DNA of 64,000 nt from an uncultured Eubacteriales bacterium (GTDB lineage Bacteria > Bacillota > Clostridia > Oscillospirales > Oscillospiraceae): positions 19,373 to 83,372 of the forward strand of contig ONBX01000001.1 in NCBI GenBank assembly GCA_900316205.1, written 5' to 3'. The notes under the pieces were generated by a model. It did no database searches and had not been told where the DNA came from. It saw nothing but the letters and a program-made list of their open reading frames with translations. The translations under genes and the position numbers were made by a program. The first letter of the stretch is position 1, and every line of letters starts with the position of its first letter. Of the stretch, positions 1 to 27,505 are shown piece after piece.

Positions 1-840
1 GCTGTCCCGGATGTTGTCAAAACCCAGCAGCGACAGGTCCTCCGGGATGCGCAGACCGATCTCCTCCGCCGCCTGCATGATGCCCAGAGCATTGGTGTCG
101 GTGGCGGCGAAGATGGCGGAGAAGCGCAGCTCCTGGGAGAAGAGCTGCTTTGCCAACTGGTAGCCGTACTTGATGGAGGAAGAGGAGAAGGTGTTGTTGC
201 AGTAGCGTGGCGTCAGCCCAAAGTGCTCGCAGGCGGCGGCGTAGCCCTCCGCACGCAGCTGATGGGTGGTGCTGGCCCGGCGGCGGCCGAAGTAGAGGAT
301 GTCCCGGTGGCCCAGCTTGTAGAGATACTCCATGCCGATCTGGGCGCCCCGGAAATTATCCACAGAGACGTAGCTCTCCGGCACCTCCCGCAGGTTTTCT
401 CCGATAAAGACCGTGGGGATGCGGCTGAGGTAGGGGGAGAGCTTGTTGTAGCTCTCCATGCCGGAGGGGATCAGCAAGACCCCGTCCACCTGCCGGCCAA
501 TCATCAGCTCGAAGAGCTCCCGCTCCTGCTCCGGGTCCCGGGAGGAATTGCAGAGGATGATGTTGTAGCCCCTGGCTCGCACCTGCCGGTCGATGTGGTA
601 GGCCAGCTCCGCCATGAAGGGGTTGTTCACACTGGTGAGGATCAGCCCCAGGAGCTTGGTGCTCTTCATGACCATGGAGCGGGCCACGGTATTGGCTGTG
701 TAGTTCATGTCCTTGCAGATCTGCAGGATCCTCTCCCGGGTCTCCTGGCTGATCTCCGGGCTGCCCGTCAGGGCGCGGGAGACGGTGGAATAGGAGACGC
801 CGGCGGCCTTGGCCACGTCTTTGATGGTTACATTTTTCAT
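1..840 (-). CDS. LacI/GalR-family transcriptional regulator (3' end outside window)
   Basis: The gene reads from ATG at 840 towards the window edge, giving 280 residues without a stop. The N-terminus (TIKDVAKAAGVSYSTVSRAL) is a classic LacI helix-turn-helix plus hinge, followed by a periplasmic-binding-protein-like effector domain (LGLILTSVNNPFMAEL, then GFDNIRDS at the cut end). LacI members are normally about 330-340 residues, so roughly 55 are missing. It is divergent from the HAD/phosphoglycerate-mutase-like cluster starting at 1202, and a LacI-type palindrome lies in front of that cluster, so it probably controls it in response to a sugar or sugar phosphate. The effector is not readable from sequence. 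Confidence 0.93.
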   Translation of the reverse strand, partial: MKNVTIKDVAKAAGVSYSTVSRALTGSPEISQETRERILQICKDMNYTANTVARSMVMKSTKLLGLILTSVNNPFMAELAYHIDRQVRARGYNIILCNSSRDPEQERELFELMIGRQVDGVLLIPSGMESYNKLSPYLSRIPTVFIGENLREVPESYVSVDNFRGAQIGMEYLYKLGHRDILYFGRRRASTTHQLRAEGYAAACEHFGLTPRYCNNTFSSSSIKYGYQLAKQLFSQELRFSAIFAATDTNALGIMQAAEEIGLRIPEDLSLLGFDNIRDS

Positions 841-2727: not shown

Positions 2728-3459
2728 ATGAAAGAGATCAAGGGCGTATTCTTTGACCTGGGCGGCACCCTCCGTATCGCGGAGCAGGTGCCGGAGCACC
2801 AGGAGGCCGCCAAGCGCCGCATGGCGGAGCTGGCGGGATATGAGGATGTTCAGGCCTTCATCGACATGGTGGAGCAGCGCTATCTGCCCTACCGGGACTG
2901 GGCCCTGGGCGAGATGAAGGAGAGCAGCGATTTCGAGCTCTGGCACAAGTGGCTGCTGCCGGAGATGGATGAGGAGAAGGTCCGGGCGATCTGCCATGAG
3001 ATGACCTATCAGTACCGCCAGGTCAAGGGCCTGCGCCATCTGGTGGAGGGCGGCCGGGAGGTCATCGAGACCCTGCACAGGCGGGGCTACAAGCTGGGCA
3101 TCATCTCCAATCTCATCGGTGAATATGAGATCTACGACTGGCTGCGGGACGATGGCCTGGAGCAGTACTTTGACGCGGTGATCCTCTCGCCGGTGGTAGG
3201 CATCCGCAAGCCGGACCCCAGAATGTACTGGCTGGGCTGCGAGAAGCTGGGCCTGGAGGCAGGGGAGTGTGCCTCCGTTGCCGATAATCTGGACCGGGAC
3301 ATCACCGGCGCCATCACGGCGGGCATCGGGGCCAATATCCTCTTCATCAGCCCTCAAAAGCTGGCAAAGAAGACCATTACCGACGCCAATCGACCCGATT
3401 ACATCGTCCACCGGTTCCTGGACATTCTGGATCTGCCCATGCTGCAGGGAGGAAAATGA
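2728..3459 (+). CDS. HAD-superfamily hydrolase, tandem paralogue 3
   Basis: A 243-residue HAD protein starting MKEIKGVFFDLGGTL at ATG 2728, with GAGGAGGG just upstream; the open frame extends further 5' but without HAD similarity. Motif II is GIISNL, motif III IRKPDPRMY. Motif IV reads SVADNLDRD, where the usual Gly before Asp is Ala. As in its neighbours the second motif I Asp is replaced by Gly. Its TGA overlaps the ATG of paralogue 4 (ATGA), indicating translational coupling. Its cap closely resembles that of paralogue 4 (YRDWALGEMK versus YREWALHFYC), consistent with recent duplication. Confidence 0.9.
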   Translation: MKEIKGVFFDLGGTLRIAEQVPEHQEAAKRRMAELAGYEDVQAFIDMVEQRYLPYRDWALGEMKESSDFELWHKWLLPEMDEEKVRAICHEMTYQYRQVKGLRHLVEGGREVIETLHRRGYKLGIISNLIGEYEIYDWLRDDGLEQYFDAVILSPVVGIRKPDPRMYWLGCEKLGLEAGECASVADNLDRDITGAITAGIGANILFISPQKLAKKTITDANRPDYIVHRFLDILDLPMLQGGK

Positions 3460-4190
3460 TGGAACAGAACATCAACACCATATTTGTAGACCTGGGGGAC
3501 ACCTTCCGGGTCATTCGCAAGGATCCGGCCTATGAGCTGGAGGCCAAGACCGTGATCACAAAGTGCCTGGGCACAGACGAGGACCCCACGGAGTTTTACC
3601 GCCGGGTCATCGAACCCCGCTATGACAAGTACCGCGAATGGGCCCTGCACTTCTACTGCGAGGCCCCGGTGAAGGAACTCTGGACCCGCTGGCTGGCCTA
3701 TGACTTTCCCCGGGAGCGGGTGGAGGCCGCGGCAGACGAGATGACCTATGCCTATCGCCGCACCAAGGGCGAGCGGGTGGTCACCGACGGCGGTATCGAG
3801 ACCGTGAAGGAGCTTTATGCCCGGGGCTACACCCTGGCCATCGTCAGCGACCTGGTGGGTACCAAGGAGGTGGACGAGTGGCTGGACCGGGACGGGCTGC
3901 GTCCCTATTTCAAGAGCGTGCAGCAGTCCTCCGTCTGCCTGATCCGCAAGCCCCATCCCGCCATTTACTATTACGCCCTGGCCGAGTGCGGCGCCGATCC
4001 CAAGCGCACCTGCTACGTGGGCGACAATCTGAACCGGGACATCGTGGGCGCCAAGGCCGCGGGCCTGGGCATGACGGTGGCGGTGCAGTATCCCAACAAG
4101 AAACCCCAGACCGTGACGGACGAAAACCGCCCCGACCGGTTCATTACCCATTTTTCACAGCTGCTGGACATTTTCCCGCCGCTGCGCTGA
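3459..4190 (+). CDS. HAD-superfamily hydrolase, tandem paralogue 4
   Basis: A 243-residue HAD protein. Two adjacent ATGs (3456 and 3459) are possible; AGGGAGG at 3446-3452 is only 3 bases from the first but 6 from the second, so 3459 is preferred. Motif I is IFVDLGDTF, motif II AIVSDL, motif III IRKPHPAIY, motif IV YVGDNLNRDIVG. The gene overlaps paralogue 3 and is followed 16 bases later by the permuted phosphoglycerate-mutase-like gene with an AGGAGG site between. The fixed order of four HADs then a mutase-like enzyme suggests they act on related phospho-metabolites, but no substrate can be named. Confidence 0.9.
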   Translation: MEQNINTIFVDLGDTFRVIRKDPAYELEAKTVITKCLGTDEDPTEFYRRVIEPRYDKYREWALHFYCEAPVKELWTRWLAYDFPRERVEAAADEMTYAYRRTKGERVVTDGGIETVKELYARGYTLAIVSDLVGTKEVDEWLDRDGLRPYFKSVQQSSVCLIRKPHPAIYYYALAECGADPKRTCYVGDNLNRDIVGAKAAGLGMTVAVQYPNKKPQTVTDENRPDRFITHFSQLLDIFPPLR

Positions 4191-4206: not shown

Positions 4207-5775
4207 ATGTTTGACAAGAGCTTTCACGGCGGCGAGGCCCTGGCCAAGGCCGTAGAGAATGCCTATGTCCAGGGCCAGACCGATTACTCCCTGGAACCCA
4301 TGGTCCTGGTGGACGAGAAGGAAGAGCCGGTGGGCAAGATCAAAAACGGCGACCATGTGGTGTTCTGCTGCCGCCGGGGCGAACGGGAGATCGAGCTTAC
4401 CGAGGCCTTCACCGACAAAGACTTTCCTCATTTCCAGCGGGAGTACATGCCGGATCTGGACTTCGCCATCATGACCATGTATCACGAGAAGTTCAAGAAC
4501 CTGCCTATCGCCTTTGCCCCCGAGCGGGTACAGAAGCCTCTGGCCCAGGTGCTCAGCGAGGCGGGGCTTAGGCAGTTTCACTGCTCCGAGTCGGAGAAGT
4601 ATGCCCATGTGACCTTCTTCTTCAACGGCGGCTATAACCAGCCCTTCCCGGGGGAGACGGACCTCTGCATCCCGTCTCCCAAGGGCATCCCCTTCGATCA
4701 GCAGCCGGTGCTGAGCCTGCCCACCGTGGCGGAGAAGGTGCAGGGTGCCGTGGACGAGGGCTATGATTTCATCGTCACGAACTTCGCCAACGGCGACGTC
4801 ATCGGCCACACCGCGAACAAGGACGCCAAGCTGGAGGCTGCCGCGGCGATCAGCCGTTATGTAAACCAAGTGGCCAACTACGCCAAAGACAAGGGCTATG
4901 TGGTGGCCGTCACGGCGGACCACGGCAACATCGAGGCCCTCTATACTAAGGAGGGCAAGCCCCATGTGGCCCACACCACAAACCTGGTGCCCTTCCTGAT
5001 CCTGGACCCCCAGGGCAGGGAAGTGACGCTGCGGGACGGCCGCCTGGGCGACGTGGCCCCCACCATCCTCTCGGTACTGGGGCTGGAGCAGCCGGAGGAG
5101 ATGACCGGACACAGCCTCATCGAGACGCCCGACTTCCACAATGACAAGATGATGCTCATCATCCTGGACGGCTGGGGCTTCGGCACCAGGGACGAGGGCG
5201 ACGCCATCTACCTGGCCGATACCCCCGAGTGGGACGCGATGCTGGCAAAGTACCCCCGCAGCAAGCTCCGCGCCTCCGGCGAGGACGTGGGTCTGAAGGC
5301 GGGCAAGGCCGGCAACTCCGAGGCCGGACACAACAATCTCGGCGCCGGGCGGATCGTGGCCCAGGACGACGTGCGCATGGACCAGTCCATTCAGGACGGT
5401 TCCTTCAAGCGCAACCCCGTTTTCCTCCACGCCATCGAATCGGCGAAGCGGGAGGGCACGGCCCTGCATCTGCTCTCCTATCTCACGGAGAAGTCCAGCC
5501 ACGGCTGCATCGACTATCCCCTGATGCTCACCGAGATGGCCGAGGGGGTGGAGCAGGTCTACCTGCACATCATCTTTGACGGCCGCAGCACCGAGCCGGG
5601 GTCCGCGCCCGCCATGCTCCGGGCGCTGGACGAAAAGCTCGCCGCCATCGGCCGCGGCGTGATCGTGGACGGCGTGGGCCGGGGCGTAGCTCTGGACCGG
5701 GACAAGAATTATGCCAAGGTGAAGCGCGCCTACGACGCCATGACCATCGGCACCGGCACTCCCTACCGGGCCTGA
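4207..5775 (+). CDS. Circularly permuted cofactor-independent phosphoglycerate mutase-like enzyme
   Basis: The 522-residue protein has the length of GpmI but its halves are swapped. Residues 1-310 match the C-terminal half of GpmI (RRGER, EKYAHVTFFFNGG, NFANGDVIGHT, TADHGN, HTTNLVPF); residues 314-522 match the N-terminal half (LIILDGWGF, GNSEAGHNNLGAGR, FDGRSTEP, ALDRD). Using B. stearothermophilus numbering, the predicted counterparts are D12=D321, S62=S371, H123=H432, R153=R460, R185/R191=R492/R498, R261/R264=R57/R60, K336=K131, D403/H407=D197/H201, D444/H445=D238/H239 and H462=H256. Only D154 is changed (S461). Metal and nucleophile sites are thus intact and an active phosphotransferase is likely; the substrate may differ from 3-phosphoglycerate. 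AGGAGG lies 10 bases before ATG 4207. Confidence 0.85.
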   Translation: MFDKSFHGGEALAKAVENAYVQGQTDYSLEPMVLVDEKEEPVGKIKNGDHVVFCCRRGEREIELTEAFTDKDFPHFQREYMPDLDFAIMTMYHEKFKNLPIAFAPERVQKPLAQVLSEAGLRQFHCSESEKYAHVTFFFNGGYNQPFPGETDLCIPSPKGIPFDQQPVLSLPTVAEKVQGAVDEGYDFIVTNFANGDVIGHTANKDAKLEAAAAISRYVNQVANYAKDKGYVVAVTADHGNIEALYTKEGKPHVAHTTNLVPFLILDPQGREVTLRDGRLGDVAPTILSVLGLEQPEEMTGHSLIETPDFHNDKMMLIILDGWGFGTRDEGDAIYLADTPEWDAMLAKYPRSKLRASGEDVGLKAGKAGNSEAGHNNLGAGRIVAQDDVRMDQSIQDGSFKRNPVFLHAIESAKREGTALHLLSYLTEKSSHGCIDYPLMLTEMAEGVEQVYLHIIFDGRSTEPGSAPAMLRALDEKLAAIGRGVIVDGVGRGVALDRDKNYAKVKRAYDAMTIGTGTPYRA

Positions 5776-5847: not shown

Positions 5848-6732
5848 ATGAAAGAATACGATCTGATGATCCTGGGCCCGGCTACCCGGGACGTGAACAT
5901 CGATTATACCGGGGCGGAGGACCGGAGCGCCGGCGGCGCTGTGACCTTCTGCACCCCCGCGGCCCGGGCCATGGGCGCCCGCGTCTTTGCGGCGGTGAAG
6001 ATCGCCCCGGAGGACCGGGACATCATGGATGTCTTCGACATGCCGGAGGAGGACAAGGCCCTCTTACCCTCGAAGCGCACCACCCTCATGCGCAATGAGT
6101 ACTTCACCCCGGACCGGGAACGCCGCCGCTCCGGCTGCGCCGCCCAGTCCGACCCCATTCTGCCCGACGAGCTGCCTGAGATCTCCTGGAAGCTCTGCCA
6201 CCTGGCGGGCCTGCTCTACGGGGACTTCCCGGAAGAGCTGCTGGAGGAACTGCACAAGAGAGCGCTGCTCTCCGCCGACGCCCAGGGCTTCCTGCGGCAC
6301 AACGTGGGCGGCAGCATGTCCCTGCACGACTGGGAAGAGAAGCTGCGTTTTCTGCCCTGGATGGACTTTTTCAAGACCGACGCCGCCGAGGCGGAGATGC
6401 TCACCGGCCTTTCCGACCGGGAGGCTGCGGCCCGGCAGCTCGTGGCCTGGGGCGCGAAGGAAGTCATGGTCTCCCACAACGCAGAGATGCTGGTCTGCGA
6501 TGGGGAGCACATCGCCACCTGCCCGGTGAAGGCCCGGAACCTCTCCGGCCGCACGGGCAGGGGCGATACCACCTTTGGCTCCTATCTTGCCATGCGGATG
6601 ACGGGACATGATATGGAAACCTCGCTGCTCTATGCCACCGCCTGCGTCTCGCTCAAGATGGAGACACCGGGGGTCTTCAAGGGCAGCATCCAAGATGTGG
6701 AGGATTATATTCGCGAATTCTATCAGGCATGA
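5848..6732 (+). CDS. PfkB-family (ribokinase-type) carbohydrate kinase
   Basis: A 294-residue protein with the PfkB fold. It starts YDLMILGPATRDVNIDY, has a small glycine patch (SAGGAVTF) near residue 31, and ends in the family signature GRTGRGDTTFGSYLA, where Asp240 is the predicted catalytic base. These enzymes transfer the gamma-phosphate of ATP to a sugar, nucleoside or related alcohol. The usual GG substrate motif near the N-terminus is present, but the sequence is divergent and the substrate cannot be assigned. It follows the permuted mutase gene with a hairpin between, and probably belongs to the same LacI-controlled cluster: a kinase with four possible phosphatases and a phosphotransferase-like enzyme. 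Confidence 0.85.
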   Translation: MKEYDLMILGPATRDVNIDYTGAEDRSAGGAVTFCTPAARAMGARVFAAVKIAPEDRDIMDVFDMPEEDKALLPSKRTTLMRNEYFTPDRERRRSGCAAQSDPILPDELPEISWKLCHLAGLLYGDFPEELLEELHKRALLSADAQGFLRHNVGGSMSLHDWEEKLRFLPWMDFFKTDAAEAEMLTGLSDREAAARQLVAWGAKEVMVSHNAEMLVCDGEHIATCPVKARNLSGRTGRGDTTFGSYLAMRMTGHDMETSLLYATACVSLKMETPGVFKGSIQDVEDYIREFYQA

Positions 6733-6811: not shown

Positions 6812-8899
6812 ATGGAAAAGTACTTTATTCTCGGTTTTCTGGGTTCGATCCTGGCGCTGGGCTTTTCGGTGATCCAGCGGCGCAGGGTCCTGTCCGTTTC
6901 GGAAGGAAATGAGCGCATGCAGAAGATCGCCGCGGCGATCCGCTCCGGTGCCAATGCCTACCTGAAGCATCAGTACACCACGGTGTTCAAGGTTTTCGGC
7001 ATCGTGTTCGTGCTGCTGCTGGTCCTGGCCTTTGCCTCCGGCGGCCGGATGCTCTCCCGGGTGACGCCCTTTGCCTTCCTCACCGGCGGCATCTTCTCCA
7101 TGCTGGCGGGCTATATCGGCATGAAGATCGCCACCTCCGCCAACGCCCGCACCGCCAACGCCGCCAGCGAGAGCCTGAACAAGGGGCTGCGGGTGGCCTT
7201 CTCCTCCGGCAGTGTCATGGGCTTCTCCGTGGTGGGCCTCGGCATGCTGGATGTGACCATGTGGTTCTTCCTCCTGCGCTATGCCCTGGGCTTCACCCAG
7301 CCGGAGCAGATCGGCTCCGTCATGGTCATGAACGGCATGGGCGCCAGCTTCATGGCCCTCTTTGCCCGTGTGGGCGGCGGCATCTACACCAAGGCCGCCG
7401 ACGTGGGCGCGGACCTGGTGGGCAAGGTGGAAGCGGGCATTCCCGAGGACGACCCCCGCAACCCCGCCACCATCGCCGATAACGTGGGCGATAACGTGGG
7501 CGACGTGGCCGGTATGGGCGCGGACCTGTACGAGAGCTATGTGGGCTCCATTCTCGCCACCTTCTCCCTGGGCGCCATCGCGGGCTACGGCTTCGCCGGC
7601 ATGCTGCTGCCGCTGCTGCTGGCGGTGGTGGGCATCCTCTGCTCCATCCTGGGCTCCTTCCTGATCCGCACCAAGGAGGACGCCAGCCAGGAGGATCTGC
7701 TGAAGAGCCTGCGTACCGGCACCTACTCCGCCGCTATCCTCGCCGCTGTTCTCGGCGCACCGCTGACTTACTTCCTGCTGCACAGCTGGGGCGTCTACAT
7801 CGCCATCCTCTGCGGTCTGGTGGGCGGCTGCGTCATCGGCTATTTTACCGAGTACTACACCTCCGATACCTATAAGCCCACCCGGGAGCTGGCGGCCGAG
7901 AGCGAAACCGGCAGCGCCACCATCATCATCGGCGGCCTCTCCCTGGGCATGCGCTCCACCATGGTGTCCATCCTGGTGGTGGCCGCGGCGGTGCTGCTGA
8001 GCTTCTACTGCGCGGGCGGCGCCAAGTCCTTCAACATGGGCCTCTACGGCATCGGCATCGCCGGTGTGGGCATGCTCTCCACCCTGGGCATCACCCTGGC
8101 CACCGACGCCTACGGCCCTGTGGCCGACAACGCCGGCGGCATCGCCCAGATGGCGGAGCTGCCCGAGGAGGTCCGGGAGCGTACCGACGCGCTGGATTCT
8201 CTCGGCAATACCACCGCCGCCACCGGCAAGGGCTTTGCCATCGGCTCCGCCTCCCTCACGGCCCTGGCTTTGCTGGTGAGCTATGTGGATATCGTCCAGT
8301 CCAAGACCGAAGAGGTGCTGGACCTGTCCCTCACCAATCCGCTGATGCTGGTGGGCCTCTTCATCGGCACCCTGCTGACCTTCCTCTTCTCCTCCCTCAC
8401 CATGAACGGCGTGGAGCGGGCGGCCCAGTCCATCGTGGTGGAGGTCCGCCGCCAGTTCAAGGAGATCAAGGGCATCATGGATTACCAGGCGGACCCCGAG
8501 TACGCCAGATGCGTGGCCCTCTGCACCAAGGGCGCCCTGCATGAGATGATCGCCCCCGCGCTGATCGCCGTGGTCATGCCCATCCTCACCGGATTGATCC
8601 TGGGGCCTGTGGGCGTGGTCGGTATGCTGGGCGGCGTCTCCGTCTCCGGCTTTGCCATGGCGGTGTTCATGTCCAACGCCGGCGGCGCCTGGGACAATGC
8701 CAAGAAGTACATCGAAGCCGGCCACCACGGCGGCAAGGGCAGCGAGCAGCACAAGGCGGCTGTGGTGGGCGATACCGTGGGCGACCCCCTGAAGGACACC
8801 TCCGGTCCCAGCCTGAACATCCTCATCAAGCTCTGCTCCACCGTCTCCATCGTCTTTTCCGGCCTGATCCTGGCCTTCAACCTGGTTGGGCTTCTGTAA
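6812..8899 (+). CDS. hppA: K+-dependent membrane-bound ion-translocating pyrophosphatase
   Basis: A 695-residue, roughly 16-helix membrane protein of the V-type pyrophosphatase family. It hydrolyses cytoplasmic PPi and pumps H+ and/or Na+ outward. The catalytic loop is visible as [19 protein letters not shown] followed by [20 protein letters not shown]; a second Asp-rich motif is [13 protein letters not shown], and the C-terminal one [14 protein letters not shown]. In [10 protein letters not shown] the residue after GNTT is Ala469, the mark of the K+-dependent subfamily (K+-independent pumps have Lys). K+-dependent members in anaerobes are often Na+ pumps, but the ion is not decided here. Energy recovery from biosynthetic PPi fits a fermenter. 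Confidence 0.95.
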
Positions 8900-8995: not shown

Positions 8996-9730
8996 ATGAA
9001 AGAAACTTTGATCGCGTACATGAACTGCCAGTTCTCGCTCATACAGGTACTGGACTTCTGCGGGAGGCTGCTGCTGGCCTGCGCGCTGGGAGCGCTGATC
9101 GGCCTGGAGCGCAGCAAGCGCTTCAAGGAGGCCGGCATCCGCACCCATATCATCGTCTGCTGCGGCGCCGCTCTCATGATGCTCGTTTCCAAATACGGCT
9201 TTGCGGATCTGACCAACGCAGCGGGAGACACGTTCAACGGCACCCGCGGGGCGGATCCGGCCCGCGTGGCGGCCCAGGTGGTCAGCGGCATCAGCTTTCT
9301 GGGCGCCGGCGTCATCTTCAAAAATGGCGGCACCATCAAGGGCCTGACCACGGCGGCCATGCTGTGGTTCACCGCCGGTGTGGGCCTGGCTGTGGGCTGC
9401 GGCATGATCTGGATCGCTATTCTGAGCACCATCATCGTCTTCCTGGTCCAGGTCATCCTTCACCGCCATGCCGTGGGCGCCGACGCGTACTCCGGCAACC
9501 GTCTGCAGTTCACGGTGAAAAACGGCCATGACTTCAACGCCGCCCTCACCGAGCAGCTGAAGAAGTGGGACGCCCAGATCACCGACAGCAAGGTGAACCG
9601 CCGCCGGGACGGCACCACCGAGTATGAGCTCACCATCCGCCGCCGTACCGAGATCAGCTATGACGAGATGAAGAGCTTCATGGAATCCCGGGAGGAGATC
9701 CTCAGTGCCAGCAACAGCCCCATGCGCTAA
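8996..9730 (+). CDS. MgtC/SapB-family membrane protein
   Basis: A 244-residue protein with an N-terminal MgtC domain of about five membrane helices. Signature segments are ALGALIGLERS, AGIRTHIIVCCGAALMM, VSGISFLGAGVIFK and IKGLTTAAMLWFTAGVG. A soluble C-terminal domain of about 80 residues (QFTVKNGHDF...) resembles the ACT-like tail of longer MgtC homologues. MgtC in Salmonella modulates F-ATPase and Mg2+/phosphate adaptation; in Firmicutes the role is largely undefined. ATG 8996 is preferred over GTG 8993 because AAAGGA lies 9 bases upstream. It has its own promoter and ends before a shared terminator. Confidence 0.9.
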   Translation: MKETLIAYMNCQFSLIQVLDFCGRLLLACALGALIGLERSKRFKEAGIRTHIIVCCGAALMMLVSKYGFADLTNAAGDTFNGTRGADPARVAAQVVSGISFLGAGVIFKNGGTIKGLTTAAMLWFTAGVGLAVGCGMIWIAILSTIIVFLVQVILHRHAVGADAYSGNRLQFTVKNGHDFNAALTEQLKKWDAQITDSKVNRRRDGTTEYELTIRRRTEISYDEMKSFMESREEILSASNSPMR

Positions 9731-9787: not shown

Positions 9788-11134
9788 TCAGACTTCCTTC
9801 CAGTCGAGGAGGAAATAGGCGGCGGCCAGCAGGTCCGCGCAGCCGCCGGGGGAGAGATCCTGCCGGATGAAGTCCCGGTCCAGCGCCTCGGCAAAGGAAA
9901 GGGGCGGGAAGGGCGTTTTGGCAAGCGTCTCCCGCAGGGCCTGGGACACGGCTTCCGCCTGCTTCGTCCCGCCGCGTTTGACCATGTTGCTGTCCTGCCC
10001 CAGAGCGATGAGATGCAGCAGCGCAGCCGCGCCGGCGTCATTCCGGTTGAGGCCGCGGGCCAAACCCTCCTCCAGCCGGGGCAGAGCGGTCTGCAGCAGC
10101 GAGGGGAGCCCCGCTGCCAGTTCGCCCCGGATGCCCCGGATACCGCAGGAGAGGTAGAGCCGTTCTCCCGCGCTGCGCGGGGCGGCACCCTGATCCAAAG
10201 CGGCAAAGTCAGCTTCGATCGCAGCGGTGCAAAGCTCTTTTGCGGCCTTGGCGATGGCATCCACGTCCCGGCAGGGCCCATCAGGCCTCCATAGCCTGCC
10301 GATGGCACCGCAGAGGGTCCCCAGGGTAAAGATGGCGCCCTTGTGGGTGTTGACGCCGCCGGTAGCATGGAACATGGCCGCCTCCGCCTGCAGGCCCAGC
10401 TGCCGCAGTTGCCGGAAGGCGGCGTCCGGCGGGTCTTTCGCGGTTTCCGCACCGGAGAGGAAGCAGTTCTTCCAGTAGCCGCGCAGGGCCTCTACGCTCT
10501 TGCGGAAGGTCTCCGGCGTCATGTCCCGGTGAGAGCCGTTGTTGTTTCGGTCCACCAGACCGGGCTTCGGGGTGGTGTCCACCTCGTCCAGCAGGGCTTT
10601 CGAGGCAAGCGCATCCAGCGCCTCGGCGTCTTCTGCCAGCAGGCCATTCCGCAGCAGTCCTGTGACGGCGGCGTCCAGCTCGGCGAGACTGTGCAGGCGG
10701 CGGGAGGCGCAGCCCCGGCCCTGCCTGCCGCAGACCAGGCAGCGGCGCTCTTCCTGCCGTGCCAGCTTCTGCCCGTCGGTTCCGATCACGTCCAGATCGA
10801 AAAGCCGCCCCAGGGGACTGCTTTCTTCGATCTCCAGGCAGAGCGCCTTGATCTCCTCCGCCTTCGCCTCCACGGCGCAGAGAAGCTCGCATCCCGTGGC
10901 TTCCCGGAGCTCTTCCCGGGAGAGAAGCACAAAACCGGCGCCTCTCAGTGCCTTATCCAGGCGGCGAAGCCCCGCGTCAAAACCCCGGCGGATCAGGGGA
11001 CTGTCCTTGACCGGCCCGGGGATATTCATGGTGAAGGACAGGACCGGACGGTGAAACTGCCCCAGCAGCTCCCGCTGCTTCCAGGCCCGGCGTTCCCGGG
11101 TGTCCAGCACTTCCTGGAGACTGATCTCTCGCAT
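9788..11134 (-). CDS. citXG: CitX-CitG fusion: citrate lyase prosthetic-group synthesis and transfer
   Basis: A 448-residue fusion. Residues 1 to about 170 are CitX (apo-citrate lyase phosphoribosyl-dephospho-CoA transferase; RPVLSFTMNIPGPVKDSP near the start). Residues from about 175 are CitG (triphosphoribosyl-dephospho-CoA synthase; DEVDTTPKPGLVDRNNNGSH and GGVNTHKGAIFTLG). Together they make the 2'-(5''-triphosphoribosyl)-3'-dephospho-CoA cofactor and attach it to Ser14 of CitD. A CxxC/C pattern (RRCLVCGRQGRGC) marks the CitX end. ATG 11134 overlaps the citC stop (TGATG), so translation is coupled. Last gene of the cit operon. Such CitXG fusions are known in other bacteria. Confidence 0.92.
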   Translation of the reverse strand: MREISLQEVLDTRERRAWKQRELLGQFHRPVLSFTMNIPGPVKDSPLIRRGFDAGLRRLDKALRGAGFVLLSREELREATGCELLCAVEAKAEEIKALCLEIEESSPLGRLFDLDVIGTDGQKLARQEERRCLVCGRQGRGCASRRLHSLAELDAAVTGLLRNGLLAEDAEALDALASKALLDEVDTTPKPGLVDRNNNGSHRDMTPETFRKSVEALRGYWKNCFLSGAETAKDPPDAAFRQLRQLGLQAEAAMFHATGGVNTHKGAIFTLGTLCGAIGRLWRPDGPCRDVDAIAKAAKELCTAAIEADFAALDQGAAPRSAGERLYLSCGIRGIRGELAAGLPSLLQTALPRLEEGLARGLNRNDAGAAALLHLIALGQDSNMVKRGGTKQAEAVSQALRETLAKTPFPPLSFAEALDRDFIRQDLSPGGCADLLAAAYFLLDWKEV

Positions 11135-12171
11135 CAATAATGCCTCGCTTCTTCCATGGCGCGGATGGCGGCGATCACCGGGGCCGCCTCGGCGCTCTCA
11201 AAATATCGCAGGCTGCTCTCCGGCAGCATAAAGGCCGCGGAAGCCAGATCCCCGTCGTGAATGGCCTGGCGCACCGAGCTTGCGCTGACGGTCTCTCCCC
11301 GCAGGGCAAGCCTTGGGATCTCCCGGAAGCGGATCCCCAGGGCGGGAAGCTCCCGTGCCATGGTCTCGTTGTAGAGCGCCGTAACATGGCTGCTCTTCTC
11401 TTCGCCCACATAGCGGCTCTCGATCCCCAGGGCCGCCGCGATCTTCCCGAACACCGCCAGATCCAGCCTGGCGTGGGCCAGGATGGCCGCGTCCTCATCC
11501 CGCAGAAAGTAGCTGGGGAAGGTGGCGGAGGAGATAATATAGGGACCGGAATCGTGGAGGATCACGTTGGGCAGGTCTTCTGTGCCTTCCCGCACCAGAC
11601 GTCTGCGCACCGCAAAGGGGATGGGGCCCGCCTCCTCGCTGAGAAGAAAGAGATGGACCCAGTCGTTCTCCCTGGCGGCCTGCTCGATCAGGTGCCGGTG
11701 CCCCATGGTAAAGGGGTTGGCGTTCATCACAACGGCGGCGCATGCGCCGGGCTGCCGGGTCTTGGCAAGGCCCTTCAGGCAGCGGTCGAAGCCATCCCGC
11801 CGGTTTTCCAGAAACACCAGCTCGCCCTCCACCCGGGCGATCTCATAAAAACCCAGGTCCGCGAAGATCCGGGCGTTTTTTGCTTTCGTATAGAGAAACA
11901 CGTGACTGTTGCCCTGCTGCATCTGCCGCTCCAGCAGATGGCTCACCACCTGGTTCATGAGCCCCTCGCCCCGATGCTCCGAAGAGACGGCGAGGCAGCG
12001 CAGGGTATTTTTGAAGCTGCTGCCGGTGGCAATCAGCGTACCGTCGTCCTCAAAGACACCGCAGCTGTAGTCCAGGTTCTTGTCCCGCCGGATGCCCTCT
12101 GCCAGAAGGAGCGCGTCCATCTGCTCCTGGGAGCGGCGGTCATAGGAATAGATCTCGCCGAGAGATGCCAT
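11134..12171 (-). CDS. citC: [Citrate (pro-3S)-lyase] ligase
   Basis: A 345-residue enzyme that acetylates the thiol of the citrate lyase prosthetic group using ATP and acetate, activating the complex. The N-terminal third is a GNAT-like domain (CLAVSSEHRGEGLMNQVVSHLLE); the rest is a nucleotidyltransferase domain with NPFTMGHRHLIEQA (the HxGH-type site). A nearby pair of ATGs exists; GAGG is only 2 bases from the first (12177) but about 8 from the second (12171), so the latter is chosen. It is separated from the upstream transporter by a terminator hairpin and overlaps citXG by one base. Confidence 0.93.
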   Translation of the reverse strand: MASLGEIYSYDRRSQEQMDALLLAEGIRRDKNLDYSCGVFEDDGTLIATGSSFKNTLRCLAVSSEHRGEGLMNQVVSHLLERQMQQGNSHVFLYTKAKNARIFADLGFYEIARVEGELVFLENRRDGFDRCLKGLAKTRQPGACAAVVMNANPFTMGHRHLIEQAARENDWVHLFLLSEEAGPIPFAVRRRLVREGTEDLPNVILHDSGPYIISSATFPSYFLRDEDAAILAHARLDLAVFGKIAAALGIESRYVGEEKSSHVTALYNETMARELPALGIRFREIPRLALRGETVSASSVRQAIHDGDLASAAFMLPESSLRYFESAEAAPVIAAIRAMEEARHY

Positions 12172-12187
12172 GGTCATACCTCACTTC

Positions 12188-12221
12188 AAAAAGGATCCCC
12201 CTGATGAAAACCAGGGGGATC
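12188..12221 (-). terminator. Intra-operon terminator/attenuator between citrate transporter and citC
   Basis: Perfect 10-base stem GATCCCCCTG/CAGGGGGATC (12194-12203 and 12212-12221) with an 8-base loop. On the minus strand it is followed by a T5 run (complement of 12188-12192). It should reduce readthrough from the structural genes into the accessory genes citC and citXG. Confidence 0.85.
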
Positions 12222-12246
12222 GATTTGCTGTTGTGTTGCTCTGGGC

Positions 12247-13659
12247 TTACAGGGGCATTACGCCGATGATCACAGCGAAGAGCATGCAGAGGATGGAGAA
12301 GATCCACACATAGAAGAAGCTGTTCTTGATGTGGTCCTTGATATCCACGTCCGCAAGACCGGTGCCAAGCAGGGTGGCGGGCACCATGGGACTGATGAAG
12401 GTGGCGCAGTTGCGGCAGACCACCATGGCCACGGCGATGGGCAGAGCCTCCACGCCGAAGGCGGCGCCGATGCTGATGATGACGGGCATGAGGCCGTAGA
12501 AGTAGGAGTCGGTATCGAAGGCCAGGGCCAGAGGCACGGACAGGAAGCCGATGACCAGAGGCAGATTCTGACCCAGGAACTCAGGCAGGATGCCGGAGAT
12601 GATACCGGCCAGGCAGCGCACCACAGAGGGGACCGCATCCGCGGGCAGCTCCATGACCTTGGCGGAGATGACCTTGCCGTCGGCTCCGATGCTGGAGGTG
12701 AGCACGCCCATCAGGACGGCGGCGCCCATCAGGGTGGAGCACATCATCAGAGCGGGGCCGGCATGGAGGTTGATGATCTTCTTGTGCATCTTGGCGGTGA
12801 AGCCGTAGTTGACGAAGAGTGCGATGGCGCAGCCGATCATGAAGGGGAAGTAGGAGGGCAGATCGAAGCCGTCGCCCCAGATCAGCAGAAAGATGACGCC
12901 GATGGTCAGGAGAATGTTGAACCAGAAGAGCTTGGGACGGGCCAGATCGTTCTGGGCCTCCTCGGAAGCCTCTTCCAGGTCCACAGTGCCTTCGATCTCA
13001 GCCAGCTTGCCGTTGAGGCCCGCGCCGCGCTTCTTCTCCTGCAGACCGGTGAGGAAAGCGTGGACCAGAGCCAGGACGATACCGAAGATCTGGATGGGCA
13101 GGATGGTCTGCCAAAGGCTGCCGGCCTCAATGCCGAGAACGGAGGCGGCACGCATGGTGGGGCCGGCCCAGGGCATCAGGTTCAGAACGCCCATGGCCAG
13201 GACTGCGATGCGCAGCAGGGAGGTCTTGCGCATGTGCATCCGCTTGAAGACGGGCAGCATGGCGGGGACCACGATGCAGAAGGTGGAGGCGCCGCCGCCG
13301 TCCAGGTGGCCGATCAGCGCGATGACCGCGGTCATGATGCACACGCCGATGACGCTGTCGCCCACCAGCTTCATGAGTTTGTTGATGATGACGTCAAACA
13401 TGCCCGCGTCTGTCATGATGCCGAAGTACAGCACCGAGAACACGAACAGCGCGGCGGTGGGGCCGGTGCTGGAGAAACCAGACTTGAGCATGGCGGAGAA
13501 GTTCTCGCCGGTGATCCGGCCGCCGATGATCAGGATCAGGGCCAGGAGGGTGGGCCATACGATGAAGGCGATGGCCGGCTGGGTTTTGCTCTTGAACAGG
13601 GTGACAACGATGGCTATGATGGTCAGCAAGCCAAGGATGCCAACTAAGGTTTCGCTCAT
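12247..13659 (-). CDS. CitMHS-family citrate transporter
   Basis: A 470-residue membrane protein with about 12 helices, starting MSETLVGILGLLTIIAIVVTLFKSKTQPAIAF. Features of the citrate-Mg2+:H+ / citrate-Ca2+:H+ symporter family (CitM/CitH type) include GHLDGGGASTFCIVVPAMLPVF, NLMPWAGPTMRAASVL and the C-terminal NCATFISPMVPATLLGTGLA. A hydrophilic loop of about 35 residues rich in Glu separates two halves. It probably imports metal-bound citrate for the lyase; the metal is not predictable here. GAGGG lies 7 bases before ATG. It is embedded between citF and citC in the same operon. Confidence 0.92.
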   Translation of the reverse strand: MSETLVGILGLLTIIAIVVTLFKSKTQPAIAFIVWPTLLALILIIGGRITGENFSAMLKSGFSSTGPTAALFVFSVLYFGIMTDAGMFDVIINKLMKLVGDSVIGVCIMTAVIALIGHLDGGGASTFCIVVPAMLPVFKRMHMRKTSLLRIAVLAMGVLNLMPWAGPTMRAASVLGIEAGSLWQTILPIQIFGIVLALVHAFLTGLQEKKRGAGLNGKLAEIEGTVDLEEASEEAQNDLARPKLFWFNILLTIGVIFLLIWGDGFDLPSYFPFMIGCAIALFVNYGFTAKMHKKIINLHAGPALMMCSTLMGAAVLMGVLTSSIGADGKVISAKVMELPADAVPSVVRCLAGIISGILPEFLGQNLPLVIGFLSVPLALAFDTDSYFYGLMPVIISIGAAFGVEALPIAVAMVVCRNCATFISPMVPATLLGTGLADVDIKDHIKNSFFYVWIFSILCMLFAVIIGVMPL

Positions 13660-13726
13660 GTTTTTCCCTCACTTTTCTATCAATTTGAAACGAGAAGGCG
13701 CTGCCTTCTTTTTTCACAGGGGGAGC

Positions 13727-15292
13727 TCAGTCTCTGTACAACGTATAGGGCCTGATCTTGCGAACCACGTCCAGAATGGTGCCGTCCCGGGCCTCCAGCA
13801 CGGCCACGACTTCGTCCTCCCACTGCAGATCGTCAGGCCGGCCTACCAGAGAGTAGGCCTTCTCCTTCAACTCCTCCACGGTGACGTGGGGGATGCCGGC
13901 CTTGTCCAGGCACTCGATCAGATCGGGACGCAGGGGGTTCACGGCGATGCCGTAATCGGTGACCAGCACGTCCACGCAGTCGCCCGGGGTGGTGACGGTG
14001 ACCACGTGCTCGCAGACCGTGGCCATACGGCCGCGGATCAACGGAGTCACGATGATGCAACACTTGGCGCCGGCTGCGGTGTCCGGGTGGCCGCCGGGGG
14101 CGCCGCGGAGCACGCCGTCAGAGCCGGTGAGGACATTGACGTTGAAGCCGGTGTCGATCTCCAGAGCGGCCAGCACCACGAAGTCCAGCTTGTTGACGAA
14201 GGCGCCCTTGTTGGCGGGGTTGGCGTACTGGGAGGCGGACATTTCAAAGTGGTTGGGGGTCTGGTTGATGGAATTCACCGCGTCCAGGTCGAAGTCCTGC
14301 ACGTCGATGACCTTGCCCACCTTCCCCTTCTTGAGAAGCTCCACCATGGGGCCGCAGATGCCGCCGATGGCCCAGCCCATCTTGATGTTCCGCTCGTCCA
14401 TGTACTTTTCCAGGAACAGGTTCGCCGCCAGGGAAGGACCGCCCACGCCGGTCTGGAAGGAGAAGCCCTCCTTGAAATAAGGCGTGGAAGCGATGACCTT
14501 GGCCACGTTCTCCGCCATCATCAGATCCCTGGGGTTCTGACTGATGCGGGCGGCGGCGGAGGCGATCTTCTTGGGATTGCCGATGGAGTCCACTACCACG
14601 ACGGCGTCCACGTCGATGGCCTCCACAGAGGCGGGCATGTTGGGGAAGTCCACCAGACAGTCGGTGACCACCACCACGTGGTCGGCGTACTTGGCGTCGG
14701 TCATGGCATAACCCATGGAGCCGCAGTTGGACTTGCCGCCGATGCCGCGGCAGTTGCCCACGCAGTCACTGGTGGGAGCGGCGATGAAGGCGATGTCGAT
14801 GTGGACCTCTCCGCCCTCAATGGCGCGGGGACGTCCGCCGTGGCTGCGGATGATGGCGGGGGTCTTCAGCTTGCCGGCGGAGACCACTTCGCCCATACGG
14901 CCGCGGATGCCGCTGGTCTGGATGCCGATGACCTTGCCCTGTTCGATGTAATCGGCAATGGGGTCGTGGGCATTGCCCAGAGAGGATGCGGCGATGGTCA
15001 GATCCTCCAGACCCAGTTCCTCAATGGCGGCCTTCATGACCATGTTCACCACATAGTCGCCGTCCCGCAGGTGATGGTGGAAGGAGAAGGTCATGCCGCT
15101 TCTGGCGCCGCACTGCCGGAGCGCGTCCGCCAGCGTTTCCACCAGCTTGCTCTCCTGGGGCTTCTCATAGCGGCGGGTGCGGGGGGACGCCTTCTGGATG
15201 TACTTGCCATCCATGTAATTCTTGCCCTGATAGACTTCTCTGCCGTCCTTCAGCAGGAAGTCAGGGATCTCTCTGCCAACTGCGTTTTTCAT
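13727..15292 (-). CDS. citF: Citrate lyase alpha subunit (citrate:acetyl-ACP transferase)
   Basis: A 521-residue CitF. It swaps citrate onto the acetyl-ACP (CitD), releasing acetate. Typical segments include GMTFSFHHHLRDGDYVVNMV near residue 65, IRGRMGEVVSAGKL, IGGKSNCGSMGYAMTDAKYADHVVVVTD and the C-terminal NPLRPDLIECL. The length matches the family (about 510 residues). ATG overlaps the citE stop (ATGA), so the citD-citE-citF trio is translationally coupled. It is followed 67 bases later by the citrate transporter. Confidence 0.96.
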   Translation of the reverse strand: MKNAVGREIPDFLLKDGREVYQGKNYMDGKYIQKASPRTRRYEKPQESKLVETLADALRQCGARSGMTFSFHHHLRDGDYVVNMVMKAAIEELGLEDLTIAASSLGNAHDPIADYIEQGKVIGIQTSGIRGRMGEVVSAGKLKTPAIIRSHGGRPRAIEGGEVHIDIAFIAAPTSDCVGNCRGIGGKSNCGSMGYAMTDAKYADHVVVVTDCLVDFPNMPASVEAIDVDAVVVVDSIGNPKKIASAAARISQNPRDLMMAENVAKVIASTPYFKEGFSFQTGVGGPSLAANLFLEKYMDERNIKMGWAIGGICGPMVELLKKGKVGKVIDVQDFDLDAVNSINQTPNHFEMSASQYANPANKGAFVNKLDFVVLAALEIDTGFNVNVLTGSDGVLRGAPGGHPDTAAGAKCCIIVTPLIRGRMATVCEHVVTVTTPGDCVDVLVTDYGIAVNPLRPDLIECLDKAGIPHVTVEELKEKAYSLVGRPDDLQWEDEVVAVLEARDGTILDVVRKIRPYTLYRD

Positions 15293-16203
15293 ACCAGATC
15301 ACCCTCCCAGAGCCCGCAGGCGCGGGCAAGCTTCAAGGTCCTCTCGGCACCGGGGATGAAAGCAATGTCGATCATCTTGCCGTCCACGGTAAAGACGCCC
15401 ACGCCCGCGGCACTCTGCTCACGATAGGCGCGCACGATCTTCTCCGCCTGGCGGATCTCCTTCTCGGTGGGAGCGAAGACCTGGTGGACAAAACGGATCT
15501 GCTTGGGGTTGATGAGGCTCTTGCCGTCAAAGCCCATGGCCTTGTTCTGCAGCACCTCGGCCTCGAAGCCCTCCTGATCGTCCAGATTGGTAAACACGGT
15601 GTCAAAGCACTGGATGCCGGCGGCGCGGGCCGCAATCAGCATCTGTCCCCGGGCGACCATCATGTCCACGCCGTCCCGCTGGGGCGTGGTCTGCATGCAC
15701 TTGCGGAAGTCGCCGCCGGAGATGGCCACGCCGAACATCCGGGGAGAAGCGGCGCAGATCTCATAGGCGTTCAGGATGCCCTTGGGGCTTTCCAGGGCTG
15801 CCATCAGAAGGGTCCGGCCTTTCTCCACGCCGAATTCTTCCTCGGCGGCTTCCACGGCCTTTTCCACGGTCAGCACGTCCTGGGCGCTCTCGCACTTGGC
15901 GATACGGATGCCGTCGGCCCCGCCGGCTACGCACACGCGGATGTCCTCCTGCCAGTGGGGGGTGTCCAACCCGTTGATGCGCACGATCACTTCGGTATCA
16001 CCGTAATCGATGGTTTTCAGCGCGTGATACAGGGAGAAGCGGGCCGCGTCCTTCTGATTCTCGGCAACGGCGTCCTCCAGGTCCAGCATGATGCTGTCAC
16101 AGCCGTAGATGTAGGCGTCTTTGATGAGGCCCGGTTTCTGCGCGTTCATGAACATCATGGTCCGGCGCAGGCGGAAGCGCTCCGGTCTCGGTCTCGGGAT
16201 CAT
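15289..16203 (-). CDS. citE: Citrate lyase beta subunit (citryl-ACP lyase)
   Basis: A 304-residue CitE of the HpcH/HpaI-like TIM-barrel family. It cleaves citryl-ACP to oxaloacetate and acetyl-ACP. Typical features are RLRRTMMFMNAQKPGLIKDAYIYG at the start (in part), DSIMLDLEDAVAENQK with the Mg2+/substrate acidic residues, VRINGLDTPHWQEDI, ALESPKGILNAYEI, and ISGGDFRKCMQTT. The start overlaps the citD stop (ATGA), and the stop overlaps the citF start. Length is normal for the family. Confidence 0.96.
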   Translation of the reverse strand: MIPRPRPERFRLRRTMMFMNAQKPGLIKDAYIYGCDSIMLDLEDAVAENQKDAARFSLYHALKTIDYGDTEVIVRINGLDTPHWQEDIRVCVAGGADGIRIAKCESAQDVLTVEKAVEAAEEEFGVEKGRTLLMAALESPKGILNAYEICAASPRMFGVAISGGDFRKCMQTTPQRDGVDMMVARGQMLIAARAAGIQCFDTVFTNLDDQEGFEAEVLQNKAMGFDGKSLINPKQIRFVHQVFAPTEKEIRQAEKIVRAYREQSAAGVGVFTVDGKMIDIAFIPGAERTLKLARACGLWEGDLV

Positions 16204-25183: not shown

Positions 25184-26011
25184 TTGGACTGTGATCTGAA
25201 AGCCATCTGCAGGGAGATCCGCTGCGATACCCTCGCAGCCATCGGCCACCTGGGCGTAGGGCACCTGGGCGGCTCTCTCTCCCTGGCGGAGCTGCTGGCG
25301 GTGCTGTATTTCAAGGAAATGCGCATCGACCCGAAGAACCCCAAAATGCCCGGGCGGGACCGGCTCATCTGCTCCAAGGGCCACGCGGGCCCTGCCATCT
25401 ACGCGGCGCTGGCAAACCGGGGCTACTTTGAAAAGGATCTGCTCATGACATTGAACCAGGGCGGCACCCGCCTCCCCAGCCACTGCGACAGCAATCTCAC
25501 CGTGGGCATCGACATGACCACCGGGTCTCTGGGGCAGGGCTTCAGCTGCGCTGTCGGCGCGGCGCTGGGCTCCAAGCTGGAGGCGGACGGCGCCACCATC
25601 TATACCATCATCGGCGACGGGGAGTCCCAGGAGGGTCAGATCTGGGAGGCTGCCATGTTTGCCGCCGCCAAGAAGCTGGATAACCTCATCGCCTTTACCG
25701 ACCGCAACAAGCTCCAGCTGGACGGGCCGGTGTCCCAGGTCAACGACATCTCCCCTCTGGCGGAAAAGTGGGCCGCCTTTGGCTGGAACGTCATCGACGT
25801 GGAGGACGGCAACGACGTGGACCAGGTGGAGGCCGCCGTGGCCCATGCCAAGCTGGGCCGGGAGAGCGAAAGACCCACCATGGTCATTCTGAACACCCGC
25901 AAGGGCTGCGGCGTCCCCTGGATCGAGGAACTGGGCGCCGCCAACCACAACACCAACATCACCGAGGAGCAGGCCCTGGCGGCCATCGCGGCGATCCGAG
26001 AGGAGGGCTGA
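25184..26011 (+). CDS. Transketolase, N-terminal (TPP-binding) subunit
   Basis: A 275-residue split transketolase subunit. It carries the TPP/Mg2+ motif GDGESQEGQIWEA...NLIAFTDRNK, the GHLGVGHLGGSLSLAE start region and SKGHAGPAIYAAL. TTG 25184 is proposed as start since AGGAG at 25171-25175 lies 8 bases upstream; ATG 25148 is upstream of that site and would add 12 residues of no homology. Together with the next gene it forms a full enzyme moving two-carbon units between sugar phosphates. The two genes are 3 bases apart. Split transketolases often serve specialised sugar or secondary pathways. Confidence 0.93.
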   Translation: MDCDLKAICREIRCDTLAAIGHLGVGHLGGSLSLAELLAVLYFKEMRIDPKNPKMPGRDRLICSKGHAGPAIYAALANRGYFEKDLLMTLNQGGTRLPSHCDSNLTVGIDMTTGSLGQGFSCAVGAALGSKLEADGATIYTIIGDGESQEGQIWEAAMFAAAKKLDNLIAFTDRNKLQLDGPVSQVNDISPLAEKWAAFGWNVIDVEDGNDVDQVEAAVAHAKLGRESERPTMVILNTRKGCGVPWIEELGAANHNTNITEEQALAAIAAIREEG

Positions 26012-26014
26012 GAC

Positions 26015-26938
26015 ATGGAAATGAGAGCGGTTTATGCCGAATGCCTGGCCCGGCTCATGGAGCAGGACAGGCATGTGGTGGTGCTGGACGCGGACCTTGC
26101 CCGGGCCAGCGGCACCCTGAAGCTTTATGAGCGCTTCCCCCGGCAGATGTTTGACTGCGGTATTGCCGAGCAAAACATGGCCTCCATTGCGGCGGGCCTT
26201 TCCAGCTACGGCTTTAAGCCCTGGATCGAGAGCTTTGCCCCCTTTGCCACCCGGCGGATCTGCGACCAGATCGCCATCTCCATCTGCTATGCCAAACAGA
26301 ACGTGAAGATCGTGGGCACAGACCCCGGCATCTCCGCGGAACTCAACGGCGGCACCCACATGAGCATGGAGGACATGGGCGTTGTCCGCTCCATCCCCGG
26401 CATGGTGATCTACGAGCCGGTGGACGAGCGGCAGCTGCGCGCCGCCATGCCGGTGCTGAACGCCTATGAGGGGCCGGTCTACATCCGTCTCTTCCGCAAG
26501 GCCCAGCCGGATGTGTTCCCCGAGGGCTACAAGTTCGACCTCTTCAAAGCGGACCTTCTGCGGGAGGGCAAGGACCTGAGCATCTTCGTCACCGGAATGA
26601 TGACGAAGGACTGCCTGGACGCAGCTCAGATCCTGGCGGAGAAGGGCATCGACGCCGAGGTCATCAACGTGCATACCGTGAAGCCTGTGGACCGGGAGAC
26701 GGTGCTTGCCTCCGCGAGAAAGACCGGCGCGGTGCTCACTGTGGAAAATCACAACGTCATCGGCGGCCTCCACTCCGCCATTCTGGAGACCCTGGCCCGG
26801 GAGAAGATCCCGGCCATGGCCGTAGGTGTTATGGATCGCTTCGGCGAGGTGGGCAAGCTCCCATACCTCCGCGAGGCTGTGGGCCTCACGGTGGAGAACA
26901 TCGTGAAAACCGCCGAGGAAGTGGTAAAGCTGAAATAA
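26015..26938 (+). CDS. Transketolase, C-terminal subunit
   Basis: A 307-residue protein with the pyrimidine-binding domain (VVVLDADLARASGTLKLYERF, FDCGIAEQNMASIAAGLSSYG; the Glu of IAEQN is the TPP-activating acid) and the C-terminal transketolase domain (DLSIFVTGMMTKDCLDAAQILAEKG, TVENHNVIGGLHSAI). It pairs with the N-terminal subunit encoded directly upstream. The gene ends before a 560-base block of palindromic repeats that separates it from rpiB; whether transcription continues is unclear. Confidence 0.94.
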   Translation: MEMRAVYAECLARLMEQDRHVVVLDADLARASGTLKLYERFPRQMFDCGIAEQNMASIAAGLSSYGFKPWIESFAPFATRRICDQIAISICYAKQNVKIVGTDPGISAELNGGTHMSMEDMGVVRSIPGMVIYEPVDERQLRAAMPVLNAYEGPVYIRLFRKAQPDVFPEGYKFDLFKADLLREGKDLSIFVTGMMTKDCLDAAQILAEKGIDAEVINVHTVKPVDRETVLASARKTGAVLTVENHNVIGGLHSAILETLAREKIPAMAVGVMDRFGEVGKLPYLREAVGLTVENIVKTAEEVVKLK

Positions 26939-26939
26939 G

Positions 26940-27495: not shown

Positions 27496-27505
27496 GGAGA
27501 TTTAT

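Follow-up and report, generated by a model that had tools for sequence, protein, structure and literature searches.

Circular permutation within the cofactor-independent phosphoglycerate mutase family: a branch with distinct pocket residues and gene neighbourhoods

Among described enzymes, the closest to the protein studied here is the cofactor-independent phosphoglycerate mutase GpmI (structures 1ejj, 1o98 and 2ify; family TIGR01307), whose chain runs from the start of a phosphatase domain through a transferase domain to the end of the phosphatase domain. Its metal ligands we take to be D12, D403, H407, D444, H445 and H462, and the residues given for substrate contact are S62, H123, R153, D154, R185, R191, R261, R264 and K336 (PMC3886921). 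Three further systems are relevant to the genes that surround our protein. The kinase TM0415 is reported to phosphorylate inositol with pyrophosphate (PPi) and not with ATP or ADP, with D11, N78, Q141 and R145 tied to inositol and K171, F221, R229, R232 and M266 to PPi, although inositol has been doubted as its true acceptor given a Km of 12 mM (PMC5931981). AfuA, of the AfuABC importer, is described as a binder of sugar phosphates (PMC4546632), and the archaeal cyclic 2,3-diphosphoglycerate synthetase is represented by structures 8ork and 8oru.

It is unusual for a two-domain metabolic enzyme to be circularly permuted in nature with the break falling within a domain. Among the titles and abstract openings listed in searches of the open PMC literature, a body mostly without subscription papers, none describes a permuted iPGM, and passages of a paper on phytate (PMC7618129) show no phosphoglycerate mutase. 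Here we describe such a protein from a 64,000-nucleotide stretch (hereafter the window) of contig ONBX01000001.1, assembled from an uncultured bacterium of the Oscillospiraceae. Numbers prefixed L, G and f denote loci, genomes and families, and those prefixed C denote the contigs of a genome.

A permuted GpmI-like protein and its relatives

The reading frame at 4207–5775 (plus strand) is open over 522 codons and encodes a GpmI-like protein of 522 amino acids, recognised by HMMER and phmmer, in which the two halves of the family stand in swapped order. Aligned to 1ejj by phmmer (whole-sequence E-value 2.1e-106), residues 15–305 (4249–5121) correspond to chain positions 219–509, the half that is C-terminal in an ordinary GpmI, and carry R57, R60, K131, D197, H201, D238, H239 and H256. 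Residues 315–521 (5149–5769) correspond to positions 6–214, the ordinarily N-terminal half, with D321, S371, H432, R460, S461 (D154 in GpmI), R492 and R498, and a short linker (residues 306–314; 5122–5148) joins the ancestral C and N ends. The profiles Metalloenzyme (PF01676, 189.6 bits against a Pfam gathering cut-off of 24.3), iPGM_N (PF06415, 152.7 bits against 27) and TIGR01307 (475.6 bits against an equivalog cut-off of 330.65) each matched in two stretches, while NF003897 scored 394.6 bits against a cut-off of 862. In the genome scan, iPGM_N positions 134–216 lie upstream of positions 2–131, so that the break cuts the transferase domain after profile position 131 and before 134, and the GpmI order of phosphatase start, transferase and phosphatase end is swapped. 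A second protein of the same genome, on contig C51, matches iPGM_N positions 1–217 in order and is an ordinary GpmI. The initial annotation, made from the letters of the DNA, had already proposed a circular permutation broken within the phosphotransferase domain, with the original termini joined at about residues 305–314, and the alignments bear it out on each point: the named residues, Ser461 included, sit where it placed them, and the spacings of 50 residues from D321 to S371 and 41 from D197 to D238 are as it gave them.

Permuted relatives proved to be widespread. A scan of GTDB contigs, with one genome per species, confirmed 220 relatives, of which the best 80 (63–97% identity) were kept, and all locus counts below rest on these 80 of 220. 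In every one of the 80 loci, marker motifs from the two halves occur within one frame and in the permuted sequence. Their record titles name uncultured Clostridia, Clostridiales, Oscillospiraceae, Lachnospiraceae, Bacillota, Oscillibacter and others, many of the titles refer to gut or rumen samples, and two loci come from Oscillibacter valericigenes strains (An860 and An411) that are not marked as metagenome-assembled genomes. Among genome draws, the permuted order was carried by 6 of 60 close-kin genomes (the window's own included), 7 of 300 genomes of the family, 2 of 394 of the order and 2 of 391 of the class; these draws overlap, the window's genome is included in the count of every one, and the last three were made under strict E-value limits. 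Beyond this set (group 1), 398 genomes of the phylum yielded 11 more distant permuted proteins (group 2; 41–43% identity) in four families outside the class, all single open frames, with one of them (L141) cut short. Among the matches listed in the order, class and phylum draws, unpermuted proteins reach no more than about 262 bits, while the lowest score of a full-length permuted protein is 375 and the truncated L141 has 337. The reading as a mobile gene was set aside: searches of mobile elements matched 44 plasmid and 22 phage records, all below 60% identity, with the ten matches listed per search each in two pieces, and a scan of viral contigs confirmed 0 of 42 stretches. Some variation was seen among the loci: L041 (the G030 locus) has lost about 25 residues in frame at about 4160–4175, just before the joined ends; the permuted gene of L086 is split over two frames; and that of L092 is cut by a contig end.

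These relatives bear directly on whether the protein could be an assembly join or a mis-ordered gene, a possibility that the initial annotation had itself named as fatal to its claim. Because both halves stand permuted in one frame in all 80 loci, which come from other records, with the same join in many other assemblies, chance or an assembly join is excluded as the source of this order and we rejected an assembly artefact; the 11 distant homologues, likewise permuted, and the purifying selection acting on the gene (dN/dS 0.05–0.17 in five pairs) also speak against it, and leave this explanation a vanishingly small probability. The search for homologues with the same order, which the annotation had called for, thereby returned both the 80 kept loci and the 11 distant ones.

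Pocket residues, phylogeny and structure model

For comparison of the pockets, the halves were put into one order by script and 102 proteins were aligned: 30 ordinary GpmIs (of 33 loci, with L012, L117 and L118 dropped by the motif filter), 62 group-1 proteins (61 of the 80 loci plus the window) and 10 of the 11 group-2 proteins (the shortened L141 was left out). Fourteen of the 15 catalytic and substrate residues checked are identical in all 102 proteins, as the initial annotation had held for the metal ligands, the nucleophile and most of the substrate residues. Both domains are retained, together with the metal ligands D12, D403, H407, D444, H445 and H462 and the nucleophile S62 (the same in all 30 ordinary and all 72 permuted proteins), as are eight of the nine substrate residues given in PMC3886921. 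The ninth is D154: all 30 ordinary proteins have Asp there, and all 72 permuted ones have Ser. Other differences from GpmI are likewise fixed: in both permuted groups, and unlike the ordinary proteins (numbered by the host's own GpmI), G121-V122 is Ser-Ser and S124 is Gly around H432, and N254-F255 is Cys-Arg and P257 is Gly around R57/R60. The Gly that precedes the Ser pair position is Lys or Arg in all 62 group-1 proteins and in 7 of 10 of group 2. In the numbering of the window's permuted protein, R56, Ser430 and Ser431 are fixed among the permuted proteins, with Lys or Arg at 429 in the window's group.

Evolutionarily, the permuted proteins do not fall among the 30 GpmIs of the same class but form a separate clade, with SH-aLRT support of 100 for the split between ordinary and permuted sequences and 99 for each of groups 1 and 2. 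The tree held 60 sequences, including 20 of the 62 group-1 rows, and came from a quick search without bootstrap, rooted at the midpoint, with a long branch at L132 and an odd letter make-up in five group-2 rows. The break and the joined ends lie at the same place in both groups, for which one permutation event is the simplest reading, and a single, ancient origin is the best account of the permuted branch.

An AlphaFold2 model built from 62 permuted sequences was confident (mean pLDDT 89, pTM 0.80), particularly over residues 301–320, where the old ends join (pLDDT 96–97). The first 22 Foldseek matches of the model were all iPGMs; Foldseek follows chain order, and about 230–330 columns were aligned per target, with TM 0.37–0.50 of the query. 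The expectation that a predicted structure would rebuild the GpmI domains is accordingly upheld over the aligned part of the chain.

Gene neighbourhoods of the two groups

The permuted gene is preceded in the window by a LacI-type regulator (1–840, minus strand, cut by the window edge; whole gene L130 10197–11213, family assigned from its L033 counterpart) and by four HAD family IA proteins on the plus strand, with motif I reading DLGGT (1202–1945), DVGAT (1989–2717), DLGGT (2728–3459) and DLGDT (3456–4190), the last ending 16 bases before the permuted gene. It is followed, also on the plus strand, by a PfkB kinase like TM0415 (5848–6732), a membrane ion-translocating pyrophosphatase (HppA, 6812–8899) and an MgtC-family membrane protein (8996–9730). 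A HAD gene stands directly upstream of the permuted gene in 75 of the 80 loci, and the flanks also hold LacI (66 loci), PfkB (58), a binding protein (37), genes of the importer ATPase cluster (34), MgtC (31), HppA (30) and a PHP-like protein (23); downstream of the permuted gene, 10 loci each have a split transketolase and an iron-containing alcohol dehydrogenase (Fe-ADH). These counts come from our own codon-score gene calls grouped by single-linkage clustering, over loci that are related and contigs many of which are short. Genes of L143–L152 were taken from a second call; the self-trained call, made on L142–L158, picked antisense frames in some GC-rich loci.

Elsewhere in the window, the minus strand at 9788–16158 holds citrate lyase genes (a CitX-CitG fusion whose CitG part is below cut-off, a ligase and CitF) and a CitE-like protein below cut-off, and at 25184–29072 the N-terminal half of a transketolase (the other half recognised by eye) is followed by an Fe-ADH-like protein, the pairing found downstream of the permuted gene in the 10 loci above.

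Upstream on the window's own contig (C40), a type II GAPDH, IolE, IolD (NCBIfam) and a LarA-type racemase scored over cut-off, in company with a PGK-family protein, a split transketolase, an Ldh_2 dehydrogenase and IolB- and IolG-like proteins below cut-off; a permease, an ATPase, a binding protein, a 193-aa gene, HAD, MgtC and LacI genes then follow, the importer genes, MgtC and LacI being named from counterparts in related loci. The archaeal-type (type II) GAPDH and the PGK-family protein occupy L142 320–2645, beside the split transketolase, iolE, the iolB-like gene and iolD. By similarity, G017 repeats this upstream order from the split transketolase on, and iolD, E, B and G are all nearby in L079. 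At E 1e-20 or better, iolD was found at three permuted loci only (the own contig, G017 and L079), among flanks mostly too short to reveal it, and IolG is over cut-off in L098, its cluster occurring in 4 of 80 loci. Profile searches gave no family match for the 193-aa gene (cluster c6). The group-1 binding protein had no phmmer match in the PDB and weak profile matches only; its model has the fold of FbpA-like binders, which is its likeness to AfuABC.

The nearest solved relative of the kinase by sequence is TM0415 (E 5e-38), and the four inositol contacts D11, N78, Q141 and R145 are kept, together with K171, R229, R232 and M266 of the five PPi residues, in all 58 neighbour kinases compared (57 of 60 clustered genes plus the window's). 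The fifth PPi residue differs from TM0415 throughout, F221 being Val or Ile in 58 of 58; I76 is Met or Thr, and S89 is kept in no more than 37 of the 58. In the window's kinase the PPi and inositol residues checked are kept except for F221 to V and I76 to M. Across the 300 family genomes, the kinase was found in nine at E 1e-30, and the seven at E 1e-75 or better (a limit set after the list was seen) are exactly the seven that carry the permuted gene, which belong to five genera and are uncorrected for kinship; the other two share 30–33% identity. The kinase lies on another contig than the permuted gene in G291 and G073, and it was not seen in 22 of 80 loci, some of which are explained by short contigs. 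A second TM0415-like kinase (L163 8027–9721, own contig C48), 50% identical to the window's, adjoins a protein that by eye resembles a glycerophosphodiesterase.

In HAD phosphatases of the DxD type, the second Asp of motif I is the general acid/base. The HADs of the cluster have DxG there instead. In an alignment of 309 HAD proteins from the window and related loci (rows shorter than 225 amino acids left out), this position is Gly in 306 and a gap in three, while the first Asp is kept in 300 (a gap in nine), the motif III Lys in 309 and the two motif IV Asps in 309 and 308. The loss of the second Asp suggests that the cluster HADs either act on an unusual substrate, whose leaving group may be a good one, or do something other than hydrolysis.

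The context of group 2 is different. In G1178 and G1105 (f155), G1092 (f142) and G1299 (f167), the permuted gene is the last in a series made up of what looks by eye like a GntR regulator, a homologue of the cyclic 2,3-diphosphoglycerate synthetase, a binding protein, a fused permease and an ATPase, with gene families checked on the G1105 copies. Over residues 5–441 of 447 (L157 copy) the synthetase homologue matches 8ork and 8oru at E 1e-133; it was identified through these PDB sequences only, as NCBIfam (at 1e-8) and Pfam (at 0.001) gave no match. Unlike the archaeal enzyme, this putative synthetase is bacterial and has an Afu-type importer and the permuted protein for neighbours, an arrangement observed in L153, L154, L157 and L158. 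Strong synthetase matches occur in 6 of 25 permuted genomes, all of group 2; none was found in the 14 group-1 genomes searched or in G1276 (f167), and the f161 genomes had none or weak ones. The best PDB match of the group-2 binding protein is AfuA (4r72), and the importer permease and ATPase are homologous between the groups (28% and 40% identity). In the f161 genomes G1190 and G1219, the permuted gene lies between an apparent RapZ and an apparent phosphoglucomutase, with an apparent Csp between RapZ and the permuted gene (all by eye); inositol genes were noticed neither in the f161 loci nor in other group-2 loci. An Fbp/Afu-type importer therefore occurs in group 1 and in most of group 2, and suggests that an anionic compound is taken up.

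Candidate substrates and roles

All 25 genomes with a permuted gene hold another phosphoglycerate mutase: a second, unpermuted iPGM_N match of at least 214 positions in 21, a GpmA over cut-off in G017, and a protein over the PF10143 cut-off in G1178, G1429 and G1105, in a search that covered 16 of the 25. A role as sole housekeeping mutase was rejected on this count. The loss of the D154 acid, with the gain of R56, Ser430, Ser431 and, in the window's group, Lys/Arg 429, indicates that the permuted enzyme is probably not a housekeeping 3-phosphoglycerate mutase.

From the conserved residues we infer chemistry of the family type. Two metal sites would be formed, one by D321, S371, D238 and H239 and the other by D197, H201 and H256, a division that we assume from the family at large; Ser371 would take the phosphoryl group and hand it either to another oxygen of the substrate, as a mutase, or to water, as a phosphatase. 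We posit, at about an even chance, that the permuted branch consists of phosphoserine-type mutases or phosphatases of an imported organophosphate, which in the window's lineage would belong to an inositol pathway: the substrate may there be an imported inositol phosphate or a phosphorylated breakdown product of that pathway, handled in concert with the HADs and the PPi-type kinase. The neighbours that favour inositol are the iol-type genes and importer upstream and the TM0415-like kinase downstream. The arginines that hold phosphoglycerate are all kept, however, so a small acid phosphate fits as well as an inositol phosphate, or better. Also weighing against this proposal are the doubted acceptor of TM0415 and the replaced F221 and S89 in the kinases, the loci in which PfkB was not seen or lies on another contig, the few loci with iolD, the group-2 neighbourhoods, and the TIGR01307 score above the equivalog cut-off. 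The surmise of the initial annotation that the changed residue marks a new substrate is strengthened, short of proof, by Ser461 with the other fixed pocket changes, by the ordinary GpmI in the same host and by the inositol and organophosphate neighbours.

Other readings of the same evidence have to be weighed against this one. The group-2 gene runs invite the view that the enzyme removes or moves one phosphate of 2,3-bisphosphoglycerate or its cyclic form, so feeding an imported archaeal solute into glycolysis. Four genomes there place the synthetase homologue (E 1e-133 to 8ork/8oru, strong in 6 of 25 permuted genomes) in one run with a binding protein closest to the sugar-phosphate binder AfuA, the permease, the ATPase and the permuted gene; the permease and ATPase have homologues in group 1 at the identities given, and the changes common to both groups (D154 to Ser, R56, Ser430/Ser431), with their extra positive charges and lost acid, could make room for a second phosphate. 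Against it, the 14 group-1 genomes and G1276 gave no synthetase match and f161 none or a weak one, and group 1 has the inositol-type kinase and iol-type genes instead; we think it unlikely for the branch. Somewhat less probable still is a phosphoglycerate mutase isozyme, ordinary except for its permutation, that serves while the operon is expressed: the 14 of 15 kept residues, the TIGR01307 score above cut-off and the type II GAPDH and PGK-family protein 21–23 kb upstream on the own contig fit such an isozyme, but all 72 permuted proteins have Ser in place of an Asp that none of the 30 ordinary ones lacks, fixed changes flank H432 (GV to SS) and R57 (NF to CR), the clade is separate, and each of the 25 genomes has another mutase.

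A phosphorylated sugar acid, keto-acid or phosphonate outside the inositol pathway is a further candidate, since the kept arginines would suit a carboxylate and 10 of the 80 loci have the split transketolase and Fe-ADH after the gene; its close association with the TM0415-like kinase makes such a substrate doubtful. A bolder form of the inositol proposal, which we consider rather improbable, has the enzyme as an inositol-phosphate mutase that moves phosphate round the ring. The operon would then import inositol phosphates, the TM0415-like kinase, running in reverse, would make PPi from inositol phosphate and phosphate, and HppA would spend the PPi on ion pumping, so that the energy of the phosphate ester would be saved as an ion gradient.

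Whichever substrate applies, the permutation marks a whole clade with a pocket of its own. The window protein scores above the TIGR01307 cut-off, so automatic annotation likely calls such genes glycolytic phosphoglycerate mutase. The existence of permuted and unpermuted relatives side by side offers a direct test of the effect of chain order on a two-domain enzyme, and a correct assignment would reveal an unrecognised route of organophosphate use in the gut, with inositol phosphate as the probable compound.
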